From positions 3,871,030 through 3,935,029 of the forward strand of contig NZ_CP025572.1 in NCBI RefSeq assembly GCF_018336975.1: a DNA stretch of 64,000 bases, in the 5' to 3' direction. The notes under the pieces are model-generated. The model made no database searches, had not been told where the DNA came from, and saw only the letters and a list, made by a program, of their open reading frames with translations. The first letter of the stretch is position 1; each line of letters begins with the position of its first letter. This document shows, in pieces, positions 56,045 to 62,504 of this stretch. Source of the stretch: Marinomonas sp. CT5. Its GTDB lineage: Bacteria; Pseudomonadota; Gammaproteobacteria; Pseudomonadales; Marinomonadaceae. A program made the translations under genes and the position numbers.

Positions 56045-57517
56045 ATGGCTAACTACTTCAATACCTTGCCGCTACGCGAGCAACTAGAGCAACTAGGCAA
56101 ATGTCGTTTCATGGACAGCTCTGAATTTGCAGATGGCGTAGAAGCGCTTAAAGGCAAAAAAATGGTTGTTATCGGTTGTGGTGCACAAGGTCTTAACCAA
56201 GGCTTGAACCTACGCGATTCTGGCCTAGATGTTTCTTACGCTTTGCGCCCAGAAGCCATTGCTCAGAAGCGTCAATCTTGGAAAAACGCGACTGAAAACG
56301 GTTTTGTTGTTGGCACTTACGAAGAATTGATTCCAACAGCTGACGTTGTATTGAACCTTACTCCAGATAAGCAACACACACCTGTTGTTAAAGCGGTTAT
56401 GCCTCTTATGAAGCAAGGCGCTTGTCTATCTTACTCTCACGGTTTCAACATCGTAGAAGAAGGCATGCAAATCCGTGAAGATTTGACTGTTATCATGGTT
56501 GCTCCTAAGTGCCCAGGTTCTGAAGTTCGCGCTGAATACGTTCGTGGTTTCGGTGTTCCTACTTTGATCGCTGTTCACGAAGACAACGATCCTAAAGGTG
56601 AAGGTCTTGCTCTAGCAAAAGCTTACGCGGTTGGTACTGGCGGTCATAAAGCAGGCGTTTTGATGTCTTCTTTCATCGCAGAAGTAAAATCTGACCTTAT
56701 GGGTGAGCAAACTATCCTTTGTGGTATGTTGCAAACAGGTTCTATCCTTTGCTTCGACAAAATGGTTGAAGAAGGCATCGACGCTGGCTACGCATCTCGC
56801 TTGATCCAATACGGTTGGGAAACCATCACTGAAGCCTTGAAATACGGCGGCGTGACTAACATGCTAGATCGTCTTTCTAACCCAGCTAAGATCAAAGCAT
56901 TCGATCTTTCTGAAGAGCTAAAAGTGATCATGCGCCCTCTATACAACAAGCACCAAGATGACATCATCAACGGTACTTTCTCTCGCGTGATGATGGAAGA
57001 CTGGGCGAACGATGACAAAAACTTGCTTCAGTGGCGTGCAGACACAGCAGAAACGAACTTCGAGAAAACACCGGCTGGCGATGTTGAAATTTCTGAACAA
57101 GAATTCTTCGACAACGGTATCTTGATGGTAGCTATGGTTAAAGCCGGTGTTGAGCTAGCATTCGAAACGATGACTGCAGCTGGCATCATCGCTGAATCCG
57201 CTTACTACGAGTCTCTACACGAAACTCCGCTCATCGCGAACACAATCGCTCGTAAGAAATTGTACGAAATGAACGCGACAATCTCTGATACAGCAGAATA
57301 CGGTTGCTACCTATACAACCACGCTTGTGTTCCACTATTGGCTGACTTCATGAAAGACATCAAAACCGACGTTATCGGTAAAGGTCTTTCTGTAGAGGAC
57401 AACGGCGTAGACAATGCTCGCTTGATCGAAGTTAATACAGCGCTTCGCTCTCACCCTGTAGAAGCTGTTGGCGCAGTACTTCGTGGTCACATGGCAGACA
57501 TGAAAAAAATCGTTTAA
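56045..57517 (+). CDS. ilvC: Ketol-acid reductoisomerase (class II, NADPH)
   Basis: A 490-aa protein with the duplicated C-terminal domain of the long, E. coli-type (class II) enzyme. NADPH-binding [20 protein letters not shown] (about 41-60) with the RPE segment that reads the cofactor phosphate; metal-binding acids in [12 protein letters not shown]. It converts acetolactate and acetohydroxybutyrate to the dihydroxy acids of valine/leucine and isoleucine synthesis. AGGATC precedes the ATG. Codon use appears more biased than in neighbours, as for a highly expressed gene. Followed by a strong terminator. Confidence 0.96.
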
Positions 57518-59151: not shown

Positions 59152-59191
59152 CCCCTTGACGACTCCTCTCTGCAAAGGTAAAAATAGAGAT

Positions 59192-59266
59192 ATGAAAAAC
59201 GTATCCCTTACTCAACAACGAATTATTATCATCATTCCTAGGAGTGGTGGGTTCGTTGTTGAGTAA
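59192..59266 (+). CDS. Leader peptide with five consecutive isoleucine codons
   Basis: A 24-codon frame from ATG 59192 to TAA 59264-59266. It reads MKNVSLTQQR, then Ile-Ile-Ile-Ile-Ile (ATT ATT ATC ATC ATT, 59222-59236), then PRSGGFVVE. A run of five Ile codons just before a terminator in front of an isoleucyl-tRNA synthetase is the signature of ribosome-mediated attenuation. The ribosome binding site is modest (AGAG close to the ATG, AAGG further away). Confidence 0.85.
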   Translation: MKNVSLTQQRIIIIIPRSGGFVVE

Positions 59267-59303
59267 ATAAAGCAAACCCGCCCAAGAGGCGGGTTTCTTT
59301 TTT
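59208..59303 (+). promoter_or_regulatory. Isoleucine-responsive transcription attenuator of ileS2
   Basis: Three competing stems. Pause/protector stem 1:2 is a perfect 15-bp pairing of 59208-59222 (TTACTCAACAACGAA) with 59252-59266, its loop holding the Ile codons. Antiterminator 2:3 is GGTGGGTT (59246-59253) with AACCCGCC (59275-59282), one G-U pair. Terminator 3:4 is AAACCCGCC (59274-59282) with GGCGGGTTT (59288-59296), loop CAAGA, then CTTTTTT. A ribosome stalled on the first Ile codons frees segment 2 to block the terminator; a ribosome reaching the stop codon covers segment 2 and lets termination proceed. Confidence 0.88.
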
Positions 59304-59333
59304 CGGCTTCTTGGGTTTTAACAGGAAGCCGAT

Positions 59334-62300
59334 ATGAGTACTCAAGACTCCCCTTCGCATTTAGCCCCCGAGGCGAATAACCCCTCTGCATCCGAGCGTT
59401 TTTCGTTCGTGGATACTGAACAGGCTGTGCTGACATTTTGGCAGGACAAACAGATTTTTAAGCGTTCCCTTGCCGAGTCAAAACATAAACCTGACTATGT
59501 GTTTTACGATGGACCGCCGTTTGCAACGGGGTTGCCCCATCATGGTCATCTGGTGGCATCAACCATCAAAGACATCATCCCGCGTTACTTTACGATGAAA
59601 GGATTCCATGTAGAGCGACGTTTTGGTTGGGATTGTCATGGTTTGCCCATCGAGCATGAAATCGATAAGTCTCTTGGTATGTCCGCCAAAGAAGCGGTTG
59701 AATCGCTGGGTATCGCTCGTTACAACGCGGAATGCCGTGGCATTGTTCAGCGTTATGCCAGCGAGTGGGAAAAGACCATCACGCGCCTTGGCCGCTGGGT
59801 AGATTTTGACAACGATTATCGCACCATGGAGCCTTGGTACATGGAATCCGTTTGGTGGGTCTTTAAACAATTGTGGGACAAAGGACTCGTCTACCAAGGA
59901 GACAAGGTTATCGCCTACTCCACTGAGCTGGAAACCGTATTATCCAACTTTGAAGCCAGTTCTAACTACAAGGACGTTCAAGACCCTGCGGTCACAGTGT
60001 TGTTTAAACTCGTAGAGGAAGACGCCTATTTTGCCGCTTGGACAACCACACCTTGGACACTGCCTTCAAACCTTGCCCTGTGTGTTGGCCCAGACATTCC
60101 TTATGTCAAAGTCCATGATAGCACTATCAACCAGACCCTTTGGCTCGCCGAGGCGCAACTAGAATCTGTGTGCAAAGGCCATGATGTAGAGGTGCTTGAT
60201 AGAGTTGTGGGAGCCGACTTGAGTGGTAAACGCTATGAACCGCTTTTCCCCTATTTTAGCCACTTGAATGCGTCCGGCGCTTTCCAAGTATTTGCCGATG
60301 ATTTTGTCTCGACTGGCAGTGGTACAGGCATTGTCCACATGGCCCCTGCCTTTGGTGAAGACGATAACCGCGTCTGCAAGGCCAATGGTCTACATGCCTC
60401 AGTTTGCCCTTTGGACAGCCGTGGCCGCTTCACCCATGAAGTGACTGACTTCAAGAACTTGTATGTGAAAGAGGCCGATAAAGCCATCATGCAAACATTA
60501 AAGGCGCGTGATCTTTTGTACCGTCAGGAAACCATCACCCATAGTTATCCTTTTTGCCCTCGCTCCGATACGCCCATCATCTACCGTTCTGTGCCCTCTT
60601 GGTACATCAAGGTAGAGCAAATGCGTGCCGAGCTACAAGCCAACAACGAACAGATCAATTGGGTACCAGAGCATATCCAACAAGGCCGAATGGGCAAATG
60701 GTTAGAAGGGGCGATCGATTGGTCGGTGTCGCGTAACCGCTATTGGGGCACTCCGCTGCCAATCTGGGTAAACGATACAACAGGAAAACATTTGTGCCTT
60801 GGCTCCATAGAAGAGTTAAAAAACTATACCGGCGTAACCGTCGACGATTTGCATCGTGATCATGTTGATGAGCTGACTTTCTCCCTTCCAGAGGAACCAG
60901 GCACTTATCGACGCATTGCGGAAGTATTCGATTGCTGGTTTGAGTCCGGTGCCATGCCTTATGCACAAGTGCACTACCCCTTTGAAAATAAAGCGCAATT
61001 TGAGCAAAACTTCCCAGCAGCGTTTATCGCAGAAGGAGTGGATCAAACACGAGGCTGGTTTTATACCTTACAAGTTCTCAGCCAATGTTTGTTCGGGCGA
61101 CCAGCGTTTAAAAACGTTATCGTCAATGGCATCGTGATGGCGGAAGATGGCAAGAAGATGTCCAAACGCCTCAAAAACTACACGCCCCCAGACACTCTGA
61201 TGGAGCATTACGGAGCGGATGCTTTGCGCCTCTATTTGATCAACTCTGGCTTGGTTAAAGCGGAAGAGCAGCGTTTTTCTGATGCAGGCGTACAAGACAT
61301 GGTGCGTCAGGTGTTGTTGCCTTGGCTCAATGGTTTTCGCTTCTTCTCGACCTACGCCGAGATCGACCAATGGCAAGGCTCAGGATCGGACAAATTCTCT
61401 GATAACATCTTGGATCAGTGGATATTGTCTCGCCTGCAAACCCTAACCACTAAGGTCAATCAGGAGATGCAAGCCTACCATCTCTACAACGTGGTGCCTG
61501 CGCTATTTGAGTTTATCGAAGATCTCACCAATGGCTATATCCGTTTGAATCGAGCCCGCTTTTGGCAAAAAGAATTGAATGAAGACAAACAGCAGGCTTA
61601 TCACACTTTGTACTCTTGTTTGGATACATTCAGCAGGTTAATGGCACCTTTTACGCCGTTTCTTGCGGAGCATTTATACCAAGAGCTGTTACCTTTTTCC
61701 GCTAACGAAAGACCAGAGTCAGTGCATTTATGCGACTACCCCACAGCAAATGCGGCGTTAAAAAACGAAGACTTAGAAGCCAGTGTCGCTCGTGTTCAGC
61801 ACATCTTGGTAATGGGTCGTCAACTGCGTAACGATTTGAAAATCAAGCTAAAAACCCCGCTTAAATCGCTGACCGTATTGCATAAAGAGGCTCAGGTACT
61901 GAACGACATCGCTCGTTTGACGGATTACATTCAAACCGAGTTGAACATAAAAAACGTAATCTTTAGCCAACAAGAGAATGACTACATCGACTTCTACGCG
62001 AAAGCGAATTTCCCTGTTTTAGGCAAACGTCTTGGCAAGCAAATGAAATACTATGCAGCACGCATTGCGCAACTCAATGAGCAAGAGCTGGAGCACCTAG
62101 AAACCCACGGGCAAATCGAGGTGGATGGGCAAGTATTTAACCATGAGGAGATTCACGTTTATCGTCAAGCAAAAGTAGGCACACACACCACCTCCAACCG
62201 TTTTGTGTCGATCAGCATCGACCCAGAACTGACGGAAGAATTGGTGGCGGAAGGCGCCATGCGAGAAATGGTTAGCCACATACAGAAAATGCGTAAACAA

Positions 62301-62504
62301 CAGGGCTACAAGGTCTTGGATCGTATCGACATTCGTATTGAAGCGAGTGACGTACTGACGCATTGGTGCCAACATCACCTTAATTACATCAAGGCAGAAA
62401 CCTTAGCTAATACGCTGCGTTTTACCAAGGTATCTGAATCGGGCTCACGCTTGAGCACCGATTTAGGCGAGGTAAACGTCGTTGTTGAGCTAAGCAGTAA
62501 ATAA
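59334..62504 (+). CDS. ileS2: Isoleucyl-tRNA synthetase, eukaryotic-like type (IleRS2)
   Basis: A 1056-aa class Ia synthetase charging tRNA-Ile. PPFATGLPHHGHLVASTIKD carries the HIGH-equivalent HHGH at 69-72; KMSKR is at 608-612; the editing domain has TTTPWTLPSNLAL near 235-247. The PFATGLPHxGH form and the length above 1,000 residues mark the second, eukaryote-like branch of bacterial IleRS, many members of which tolerate mupirocin; the swapped HIGH motif linked to hyper-resistance is not present. AGGAAGC precedes the ATG. It is preceded by the Ile-codon attenuator, so expression should rise when charged tRNA-Ile falls. Whether a type-1 ileS exists elsewhere cannot be seen here. Confidence 0.93.
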   Translation: MSTQDSPSHLAPEANNPSASERFSFVDTEQAVLTFWQDKQIFKRSLAESKHKPDYVFYDGPPFATGLPHHGHLVASTIKDIIPRYFTMKGFHVERRFGWDCHGLPIEHEIDKSLGMSAKEAVESLGIARYNAECRGIVQRYASEWEKTITRLGRWVDFDNDYRTMEPWYMESVWWVFKQLWDKGLVYQGDKVIAYSTELETVLSNFEASSNYKDVQDPAVTVLFKLVEEDAYFAAWTTTPWTLPSNLALCVGPDIPYVKVHDSTINQTLWLAEAQLESVCKGHDVEVLDRVVGADLSGKRYEPLFPYFSHLNASGAFQVFADDFVSTGSGTGIVHMAPAFGEDDNRVCKANGLHASVCPLDSRGRFTHEVTDFKNLYVKEADKAIMQTLKARDLLYRQETITHSYPFCPRSDTPIIYRSVPSWYIKVEQMRAELQANNEQINWVPEHIQQGRMGKWLEGAIDWSVSRNRYWGTPLPIWVNDTTGKHLCLGSIEELKNYTGVTVDDLHRDHVDELTFSLPEEPGTYRRIAEVFDCWFESGAMPYAQVHYPFENKAQFEQNFPAAFIAEGVDQTRGWFYTLQVLSQCLFGRPAFKNVIVNGIVMAEDGKKMSKRLKNYTPPDTLMEHYGADALRLYLINSGLVKAEEQRFSDAGVQDMVRQVLLPWLNGFRFFSTYAEIDQWQGSGSDKFSDNILDQWILSRLQTLTTKVNQEMQAYHLYNVVPALFEFIEDLTNGYIRLNRARFWQKELNEDKQQAYHTLYSCLDTFSRLMAPFTPFLAEHLYQELLPFSANERPESVHLCDYPTANAALKNEDLEASVARVQHILVMGRQLRNDLKIKLKTPLKSLTVLHKEAQVLNDIARLTDYIQTELNIKNVIFSQQENDYIDFYAKANFPVLGKRLGKQMKYYAARIAQLNEQELEHLETHGQIEVDGQVFNHEEIHVYRQAKVGTHTTSNRFVSISIDPELTEELVAEGAMREMVSHIQKMRKQQGYKVLDRIDIRIEASDVLTHWCQHHLNYIKAETLANTLRFTKVSESGSRLSTDLGEVNVVVELSSK

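Follow-up and report, generated by a model that had tools for sequence, protein, structure and literature searches.

The window analyzed here, a 64,000-nucleotide stretch of the 4.76-Mb chromosome of Marinomonas sp. CT5, contains ileS2, a gene for an isoleucyl-tRNA synthetase (IleRS), with a short leader directly in front of it. The gene upstream of the leader and ileS2 encodes a ModF-like ABC ATPase, and ilvC (ketol-acid reductoisomerase) is located at 56045-57517, two genes upstream of ileS2. The initial annotation had described a 24-codon leader with five Ile codons, a perfect 15-bp stem, an antiterminator and a terminator. As shown in Table 1, all of these features are present. Thus, a short open reading frame (ORF) carries consecutive codons for the residue under regulation, a protector stem (1:2) spans these sensor codons and, by sequence and folding, the antiterminator and the intrinsic terminator are mutually exclusive. 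Folding adds one G-U pair to the 15 bp of the outer stem. The antiterminator (59246-59253 : 59275-59282) consists of eight pairs, one of which is G-U. The terminator pairs 59275-59282 with 59288-59295, is lengthened by the pair 59274:59296, and ends in the tract TTTCTTTTTT (59294-59303), in which a C interrupts the U-tract.

Table 1 Features of the ileS2 leader region (window coordinates).
Feature	Position	Strand	Basis or remark
Predicted sigma-70 promoter, -35 TTGACG	59156-59161	+	consensus scan
Predicted -10 AAAAAT	59180-59185 (or TAAAAA 59179-59184)	+	6-7 nt before the leader ATG
Leader peptide ORF MKNVSLTQQRIIIIIPRSGGFVVE	59192 (ATG)-59266 (TAA)	+	24 codons and stop; sequence, related leaders
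Segment 1, 5′ arm of outer stem	59208-59222	+	perfect 15 bp; fold, arm-swap test
Match to Rfam RF00624 (P9)	59219-59297	+	53.7 bits (gathering score, 43)
Five consecutive Ile codons ATT ATT ATC ATC ATT, presumed sensor	59222-59236	+	sequence
Inner hairpin, Ile codons with segment 2 (TCATCATTC : GAGTGGTGG)	59229-59250	+	fold
Segment 2, antiterminator strand GGTGGGTT	59246-59253	+	pairs with segment 3
Outer stem 3′ arm, leader stop codon included	59252-59266	+	sequence, fold
Segment 3 AACCCGCC, common to antiterminator and terminator	59275-59282	+	pairing
Segment 4 GGCGGGTT and intrinsic-terminator U-tract	59288-59303	+	terminator scan, pairing across leaders
11-bp hairpin 59303-59313 : 59322-59332	59303-59332	+	covers the ileS2 Shine-Dalgarno AGGAAG 59323-59328; fold
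Segment 5 CTTCTTGGG	59307-59315	+	alternative pairing possible with the terminator loop and arm (59281-59289)
ileS2, eukaryotic-type isoleucyl-tRNA synthetase	59334-62504	+	1056 aa, HHGH motif

The window IleRS2 scores 960 bits with the ileS model TIGR00392 (NCBIfam cut-off, 621). Among solved structures, its closest relatives are cytoplasmic eukaryotic IleRS (1095 bits); 8c8v, a type 2 IleRS, gave 763 bits and 1ffy, a type 1 IleRS, gave 328 bits. By sequence, the enzyme is thus nearer to cytoplasmic and type 2 IleRS than to IleRS1, in agreement with the earlier description of a eukaryotic-type enzyme. The presumed coexistence with a type 1 enzyme was also borne out: a second IleRS frame in the same genome encodes 941 aa with a HIGH motif (IleRS1). 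With the MupA and MupB models, the window IleRS2 scores 757 and 767 bits, respectively, which is below the cut-off of 1900.

The promoter assignment was compared among 21 IleRS2 leaders. When the TTGA nearest to -36 was taken, and L057 was counted from its first in-frame ATG, TTGA starts at -34 to -37 from the leader start in 21 of 21; the chance frequency of TTGA for -33 to -38 is 0.039. The -10-like hexamers are weak (two to five matches of six) and end 6-8 nt before the leader start, and an unconstrained scan for the best hexamer gave scattered distances of 6 to 29 nt. None of seven Shine-Dalgarno-like words was found at -16 to -4 in any of these 21 leaders. From the TTGA spacing and the absence of these words, transcription is predicted to start at the leader AUG or within a few bases of it, and the leader peptide is probably leaderless.

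Alternative folds of the leader RNA

The 142-nt stretch at 59192-59333 folds at -67.7 kcal/mol, and its dinucleotide shuffles fold at -31.5 kcal/mol (sd 3.7); the z value is -9.9 and none of 200 shuffles was as good. When 13 leader stretches were folded singly, five (L013, L015, L120, L018 and L019) gave z values between -0.5 and -1.1. Therefore, unusual stability is not general to all leaders. The outer stem 1:2 is made of differing letters across genomes. In 14 leaders, one from each of the clusters that were chosen by eye, own arms pair at -14.5 kcal/mol and swapped arms at -9.2 kcal/mol, and 0 of 10000 swaps were as good, in a test that ignores relatedness, as do the shuffle tests on leaders.

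The other helices were examined in an alignment (A3) of 14 ileS2 leaders and 11 leaders of a kinase gene described below (25 in total), with L016, L017, L026, L053, L118, L121 and L122 outside it. In the inner hairpin, 92.4% of cells are paired with 12 double-change cells (0 of 500 shuffles), a count in which the innermost pair cannot form in the window because its loop would be 2 nt. In the terminator 3:4, 100% of cells are paired and there are five compensatory cells (G-C to A-U), which all belong to a single pair. The antiterminator pairing is kept in 90.4%, with zero double-sided changes and a covariation score no better than that of shuffled alignments (470 of 500). The initial annotation had called for covariation in the stems; it is thus seen in 1:2, the inner hairpin and 3:4, and is not seen in the antiterminator helix.

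Folding of the growing RNA with a ribosome stalled on the Ile run gave the antiterminator as the minimum from 59282 to 59292. From 59294 onward, the terminator fold is better than the antiterminator by 0.3 to 3.4 kcal/mol, and it is ahead by 1.8 kcal/mol when either helix is forced in the readthrough RNA. Because the terminator fold is better once segment 4 has been made, the choice between the two helices must occur during transcription.

Occurrence of the leader before other IleRS2 genes

Upstream regions were taken from a named collection (576 confirmed stretches, limited to the best 80) and from genome searches. Among these best 80, the closest IleRS2 proteins are those of M. spartinae (93% identity) and M. 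rhodophyticola (84%). The leader and terminator are present in all nine Marinomonas IleRS2 loci (L001, L009, L010 and L089-L094; eight are distinct, and L094 appears to duplicate L009). The leaders and terminators of these loci are nearly identical, and at least three different types of sequence precede the promoter among the eight loci compared. For example, M. rhodophyticola is identical to the window from segment 1 to the stop codon and in the terminator, with an IleRS2 of 84% identity. Furthermore, IleRS2 genes of Veronia, two Vibrio species, Natronospirillum and uncultured Pseudomonadales are preceded by Ile-rich leaders whose terminator core is AACCCGCC/GGCGGGTT or close to it. Over the 14 one-per-cluster leaders, 75 of 267 residues are Ile, and among eight residues tabulated Ile alone reaches at least three in an eight-residue window in every leader (14/14).

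In a tree of 77 IleRS2 proteins, all 27 leader-bearing genes fall within one group of 41 (SH-aLRT 80), and the leader label requires 6 changes as compared with 22 for shuffled labels. An Ile-rich leader with terminator is absent from 14 of the 41 group members and from all 36 other IleRS2 in the tree. Thus, the proposal that homologous upstream regions carry both the Ile run and the terminator holds for Marinomonas (9/9 loci) and fails for more distant IleRS2 (14/41 in the group, 36/36 outside it). This distribution of upstream sequences would fit one early gain of the leader and several later losses, but the starred branches of the tree force at least four label changes. L028 has no leader and retains a promoter, as well as a terminator whose core is the same; its upstream region may be a relic of a leader. 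The duplicates L094, L119, L123 and L124 and the fragments L008, L049 and L059 were left out of the tree and of the detector counts given below.

The detector looks for an Ile-rich short ORF with an antiterminator and a terminator, and its limits were set after the leaders had been seen. It is positive for 23 of the 41 group members and misses 4 of the 27 leaders identified by eye. No positive was obtained among 76 other IleRS2 regions (a few with less than 400 nt of upstream sequence), 24 Marinomonas IleRS1 regions or 540 shuffles of leader-bearing upstream regions. An attenuator on IleRS1 was therefore rejected for these 24 regions. In the window, 2 of 636 tiles are positive, one of which is the ileS2 leader site. 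At E 0.1, model R1, made from ileS2 and kinase leaders, matched none of the 14 group members whose upstream regions lack an Ile leader; L016 and L118 reach only 29 bits with it.

Many related leaders end in Val-Gly-stop (GTG GGT TGA or similar), and these codons are the antiterminator strand GGTGGGTT. Because GGTGGGTT is read in another frame in Marinomonas, we argue that it is conserved as RNA. In the kinase leaders that were read and in two Vibrio ileS2 leaders, the stop codon is within one codon of the Ile run (CCATAG, TCCTAG etc.). The Marinomonas ileS2 leaders have CCTAGG at this site and have lost the stop after the Ile run; therefore, the Marinomonas frame continues to the TAA at 59264-59266. 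Accompanying this, the distance from the stop to segment 3 is 8-9 nt in Marinomonas ileS2 leaders as compared with 18-51 nt in related leaders. A ribosome at this TAA would still cover segment 2 and, by usual ribosome footprints, only the edge of segment 3.

Proposed mechanism and the two types of IleRS

These comparisons make it highly probable that the element is a ribosome-mediated, isoleucine-specific transcription attenuator of ileS2. This was the reading of the initial annotation, and at the level of sequence it is well supported across genomes. Transcription would start at the leader AUG, so that the ribosome would load on the 5′ end of the RNA. With ample Ile-tRNA, the ribosome would pass the five Ile codons, reach the stop codon and cover segment 2, and the terminator 3:4 would form. 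If there were no translation, stem 1:2 would form and the terminator would form as well. When charged tRNAIle is scarce, the ribosome would stall at the Ile codons and open stem 1:2 and the inner hairpin; segment 2 would then pair with segment 3, and RNA polymerase would read into ileS2. In this scheme, we infer the start site, the stalling, the direction of the response and the function of the enzyme.

The purpose of such a switch depends on which enzymes a genome possesses. IleRS2 is present in 7 of 48 genomes of the family, all seven of which have an IleRS1-type match as well. At E 1e-150 or better, IleRS2 was found in 22 of 390 genomes of the order and 16 of 369 genomes of the class, own genome included; at the class level, identity exceeds 50% only in the own genome and three others and is about 40% in the rest. 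Among the leader-bearing genomes searched, 12 have both types and 14 have IleRS2 as the only IleRS found, a tally that omits the genome of L010 and in which several of the 14 are MAGs whose completeness is not stated and three of the 14 are 100% complete. Fifteen genomes were found with both enzymes, and in three of these (L021, L023 and L046) there is no leader. These three, from Pseudoalteromonas luteoviolacea and Vibrio sp. S9_S30, have nearly identical IleRS2 proteins beside IleRS1, which is likely due to a recent intergeneric transfer. The IleRS2 of Priestia megaterium is reportedly induced by stress. According to PMC10485003, the two types generally occur singly, save in a small group of Bacillaceae; that arrangement, with IleRS1 and IleRS2 in one genome, resembles the one described here and is Gram-positive.

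Because 14 leader-bearing genomes possess IleRS2 alone, feedback on the charging of tRNAIle is probably the older, ancestral role of the attenuator. In genomes with IleRS2 as the sole IleRS, charging feedback is the only role left for the attenuator. In genomes with both enzymes, it would hold IleRS2 low, as a spare, until IleRS1 fails or isoleucine is short. The related reading of the initial annotation, which is partly supported, shares the attenuation mechanism and differs in purpose: the attenuator would serve mainly to detect that a mupirocin- or thiomarinol-like compound has poisoned IleRS1, and would turn on a tolerant IleRS2. The 12 leader-bearing genomes with both enzymes and the patchy distribution of IleRS2 in the family are in its favor, and we consider it possible, although not the simplest reading of the IleRS distribution. 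However, in the 14 leader-bearing genomes with no IleRS1 match the switch cannot rescue IleRS1, and plain isoleucine starvation would produce the same signal. In addition, the HHGH motif is canonical in all 41 members of the leader-containing tree group; in PMC10485003, canonical-HHGH IleRS2 is described as resistant, not hyper-resistant. The sequence gives no distinction between an inhibitor and isoleucine shortage as the trigger.

A second hairpin covers the Shine-Dalgarno of ileS2 (Table 1). In swap tests on 17 leaders, swapped partners were as good in 0 of 10000 trials for segment 5 with the Shine-Dalgarno, in 3 of 10000 for segment 5 with the terminator loop and in 572 of 10000 for the control; L160, L182, L189 and L192, which were not placed, and the near copies L010, L181, L186 and L187 are not among the 17. 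The corresponding values are 2 (Shine-Dalgarno) and 128 (loop) of 10000 for the 13 kinase leaders alone, and 435 of 10000 (Shine-Dalgarno) for the four ileS2 leaders alone. It could be considered that this hairpin is a translational switch and that the terminator is a mere gene boundary, since the hairpin is stable and its pairing is kept better than that of swapped partners. However, in the folded window the hairpin remains closed when either 2:3 or 3:4 is forced, and thus no switch is demonstrated in the window; we rejected it as a clean second-layer switch there. Moreover, by eye the hairpin is found only in the Marinomonas-Vibrio ileS2 and kinase leaders and is absent from other ileS2 leaders, and translational control leaves the Ile run, the antiterminator and the terminator unexplained. 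Control by this hairpin in place of attenuation is therefore quite improbable.

Rfam P9, other target genes and known attenuators

In a gathering-score scan of the whole window, P9 was the only Rfam match. A T-box riboswitch was rejected, as there is no Rfam T-box match in the whole window; RF01859 Phe_leader (30.7 vs 55 bits) and RF00512 Leu_leader (26 vs 50 bits) are below gathering. RF00624 is filed as an RNA gene, "Pseudomonas sRNA P9", whereas the window element is a cis leader with an Ile-rich ORF. The P9 consensus itself reads Ile-Ile-Ile-Thr-Ala-Ile-Pro-Val-Met-Ala-Gly-stop, followed by a terminator; P9 looks mis-filed as a plain sRNA.

P9 matches occur in 26 of 194 genomes of the order and are above the cut-off in eight. 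The strongest (86 bits; L154 1501-1577) immediately precedes ilvA (threonine ammonia-lyase) and reads as the end of an Ile-rich leader with a terminator. The others above the cut-off are the window element before ileS2, L158 and L159 before a P-loop kinase gene, L155 before a SnoaL-like and AAA_33 kinase pair, L156 and L157 before the same kinase at a similar distance, and L160 before one further frame. Below the cut-off, seven more precede the P-loop kinase and two precede ilvA. The targets of L154, L155, L164 and L171 were assigned by family scan and the others by eye from the reading frame; 8 of the 27 hits (L167-L169, L174 and L176-L179), which do not appear Ile-leader-like, and L160, L173 and L175 are uncounted.

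Model R1 recovers L154, the ilvA-linked P9 member. In the genus, R1 has 22 matches in 20 of 47 genomes, 13 before the kinase, 7 before ileS2 and 2 elsewhere; because 10 of its 25 source leaders are Marinomonas ileS2 and kinase leaders, the concentration on these targets (20/22) is partly built in. All 13 kinase genes found in the genus at E 1e-30 are behind an R1-matched leader, and in one genome (G024) the kinase gene and ileS2 are both present, with a separate leader before each. In the class, R1 matches 9 of 274 genomes. The strong matches besides the window are L193 before the kinase (by eye), L196 and L194 before SnoaL-like genes (L194 by eye) and L202 before a GNAT acetyltransferase gene; 6 of the 11 class hits (L197-L201 and L203) do not appear Ile-leader-like and were uncounted. 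Thus, one leader type precedes several unlike genes. Since these include ilvA and others, the leader is a shared isoleucine-response element and is not dedicated to IleRS2. That the transcript is instead a trans-acting small RNA of the P9 family, with ileS2 merely downstream, is hardly credible: the RF00624 score is above gathering and termination would yield a leader RNA of about 110 nt, but the P9 consensus reads as an Ile leader before a terminator and related elements precede ilvA, ileS2 and a few other genes. The RNA may nevertheless have an additional role in trans.

Several of these targets deserve description. The P-loop kinase (L164 1624-2136) has about 175 aa and shows weak similarity to PRK08118, "DNA topology modulation protein" (81 of 215 bits); no solved relative was found at E 0.001. 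Its loci behind an Ile leader are L180-L192 (Marinomonas, 13/13), L158, L159, L161-L166 and L170. SnoaL/DUF4440-like proteins are behind Ile leaders in three gammaproteobacterial families (L155 1474-2024; L196 1624-2028; L194 1057-1563, minus strand). The GNAT acetyltransferase gene (L202 1500-2211) is behind a leader with merely scattered Ile codons, and in the same genome (G470) the kinase gene is likewise present, behind an Ile leader of its own. In G037, a second leader-like copy (L224, about 1430-1580), whose preceding 70 nt contain no ATG, is located some 2 kb away from the kinase leader and upstream of a frame that resembles a flavin monooxygenase by eye. It is perhaps a decayed copy.

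The his, thr, ilv, leu and pheST leaders encode a peptide rich in the sensed residue and form alternative antiterminator and terminator hairpins. The ileS2 leader has both properties in common with these gammaproteobacterial attenuators, of which that of pheST likewise belongs to a tRNA synthetase operon; in contrast to them, it would sense Ile, its target is a synthetase of the second type and it is probably leaderless. Synthetase genes with known or predicted leader-peptide attenuation include pheST, leuS and trpS (PMC1262725) and hisS/hisZ (PMC2965389). The Streptomyces leuS/trpS and bacilli hisS/hisZ cases, likewise predicted there, differ from that of ileS2 in phylum, residue and enzyme. 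For actinobacterial ileS, PMC1262725 gives predicted translational T-boxes and no leader peptides. The trpL attenuator RNA of Sinorhizobium meliloti begins at the ATG of the leader ORF (PMC7298713), as predicted for the ileS2 leader, and differs in that it concerns Trp, an alphaproteobacterium and a biosynthetic operon. "ileS" is absent from the main text of PMC2965389 and PMC4833913, and "T-box", "attenuat-", "regulat-" and "upstream" are absent from the main text of PMC4861432. In the open-licence literature, outside which most subscription journals lie, we found no report of leader-peptide attenuation of an isoleucyl-tRNA synthetase.

Finally, a wider idea, which we offer as speculation and regard as unlikely in its full form, is that Gammaproteobacteria share an isoleucine-charging alarm regulon. 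In this regulon, a leaderless Ile attenuator, filed as sRNA P9, would switch on the spare IleRS2 and elsewhere the P-loop kinase, GNAT acetyltransferase and SnoaL/DUF4440-like enzymes. Small enzymes of these kinds often serve to modify drugs, and the regulon would provide inducible protection from natural inhibitors of IleRS. Segment 5 would add a lock, by pairing either with the Shine-Dalgarno or with the terminator arm once this is free.

If attenuation of ileS2 operates as proposed, it would be a testable mechanism by which a second synthetase, possibly tolerant to drugs, is kept off for as long as charging does not fail. Marinomonas, Vibrionaceae, Pseudoalteromonas and Natronospirillum would then join the bacteria that carry both types of IleRS. 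It would also suggest that Rfam P9 be read as a family of isoleucine attenuators with several different targets.
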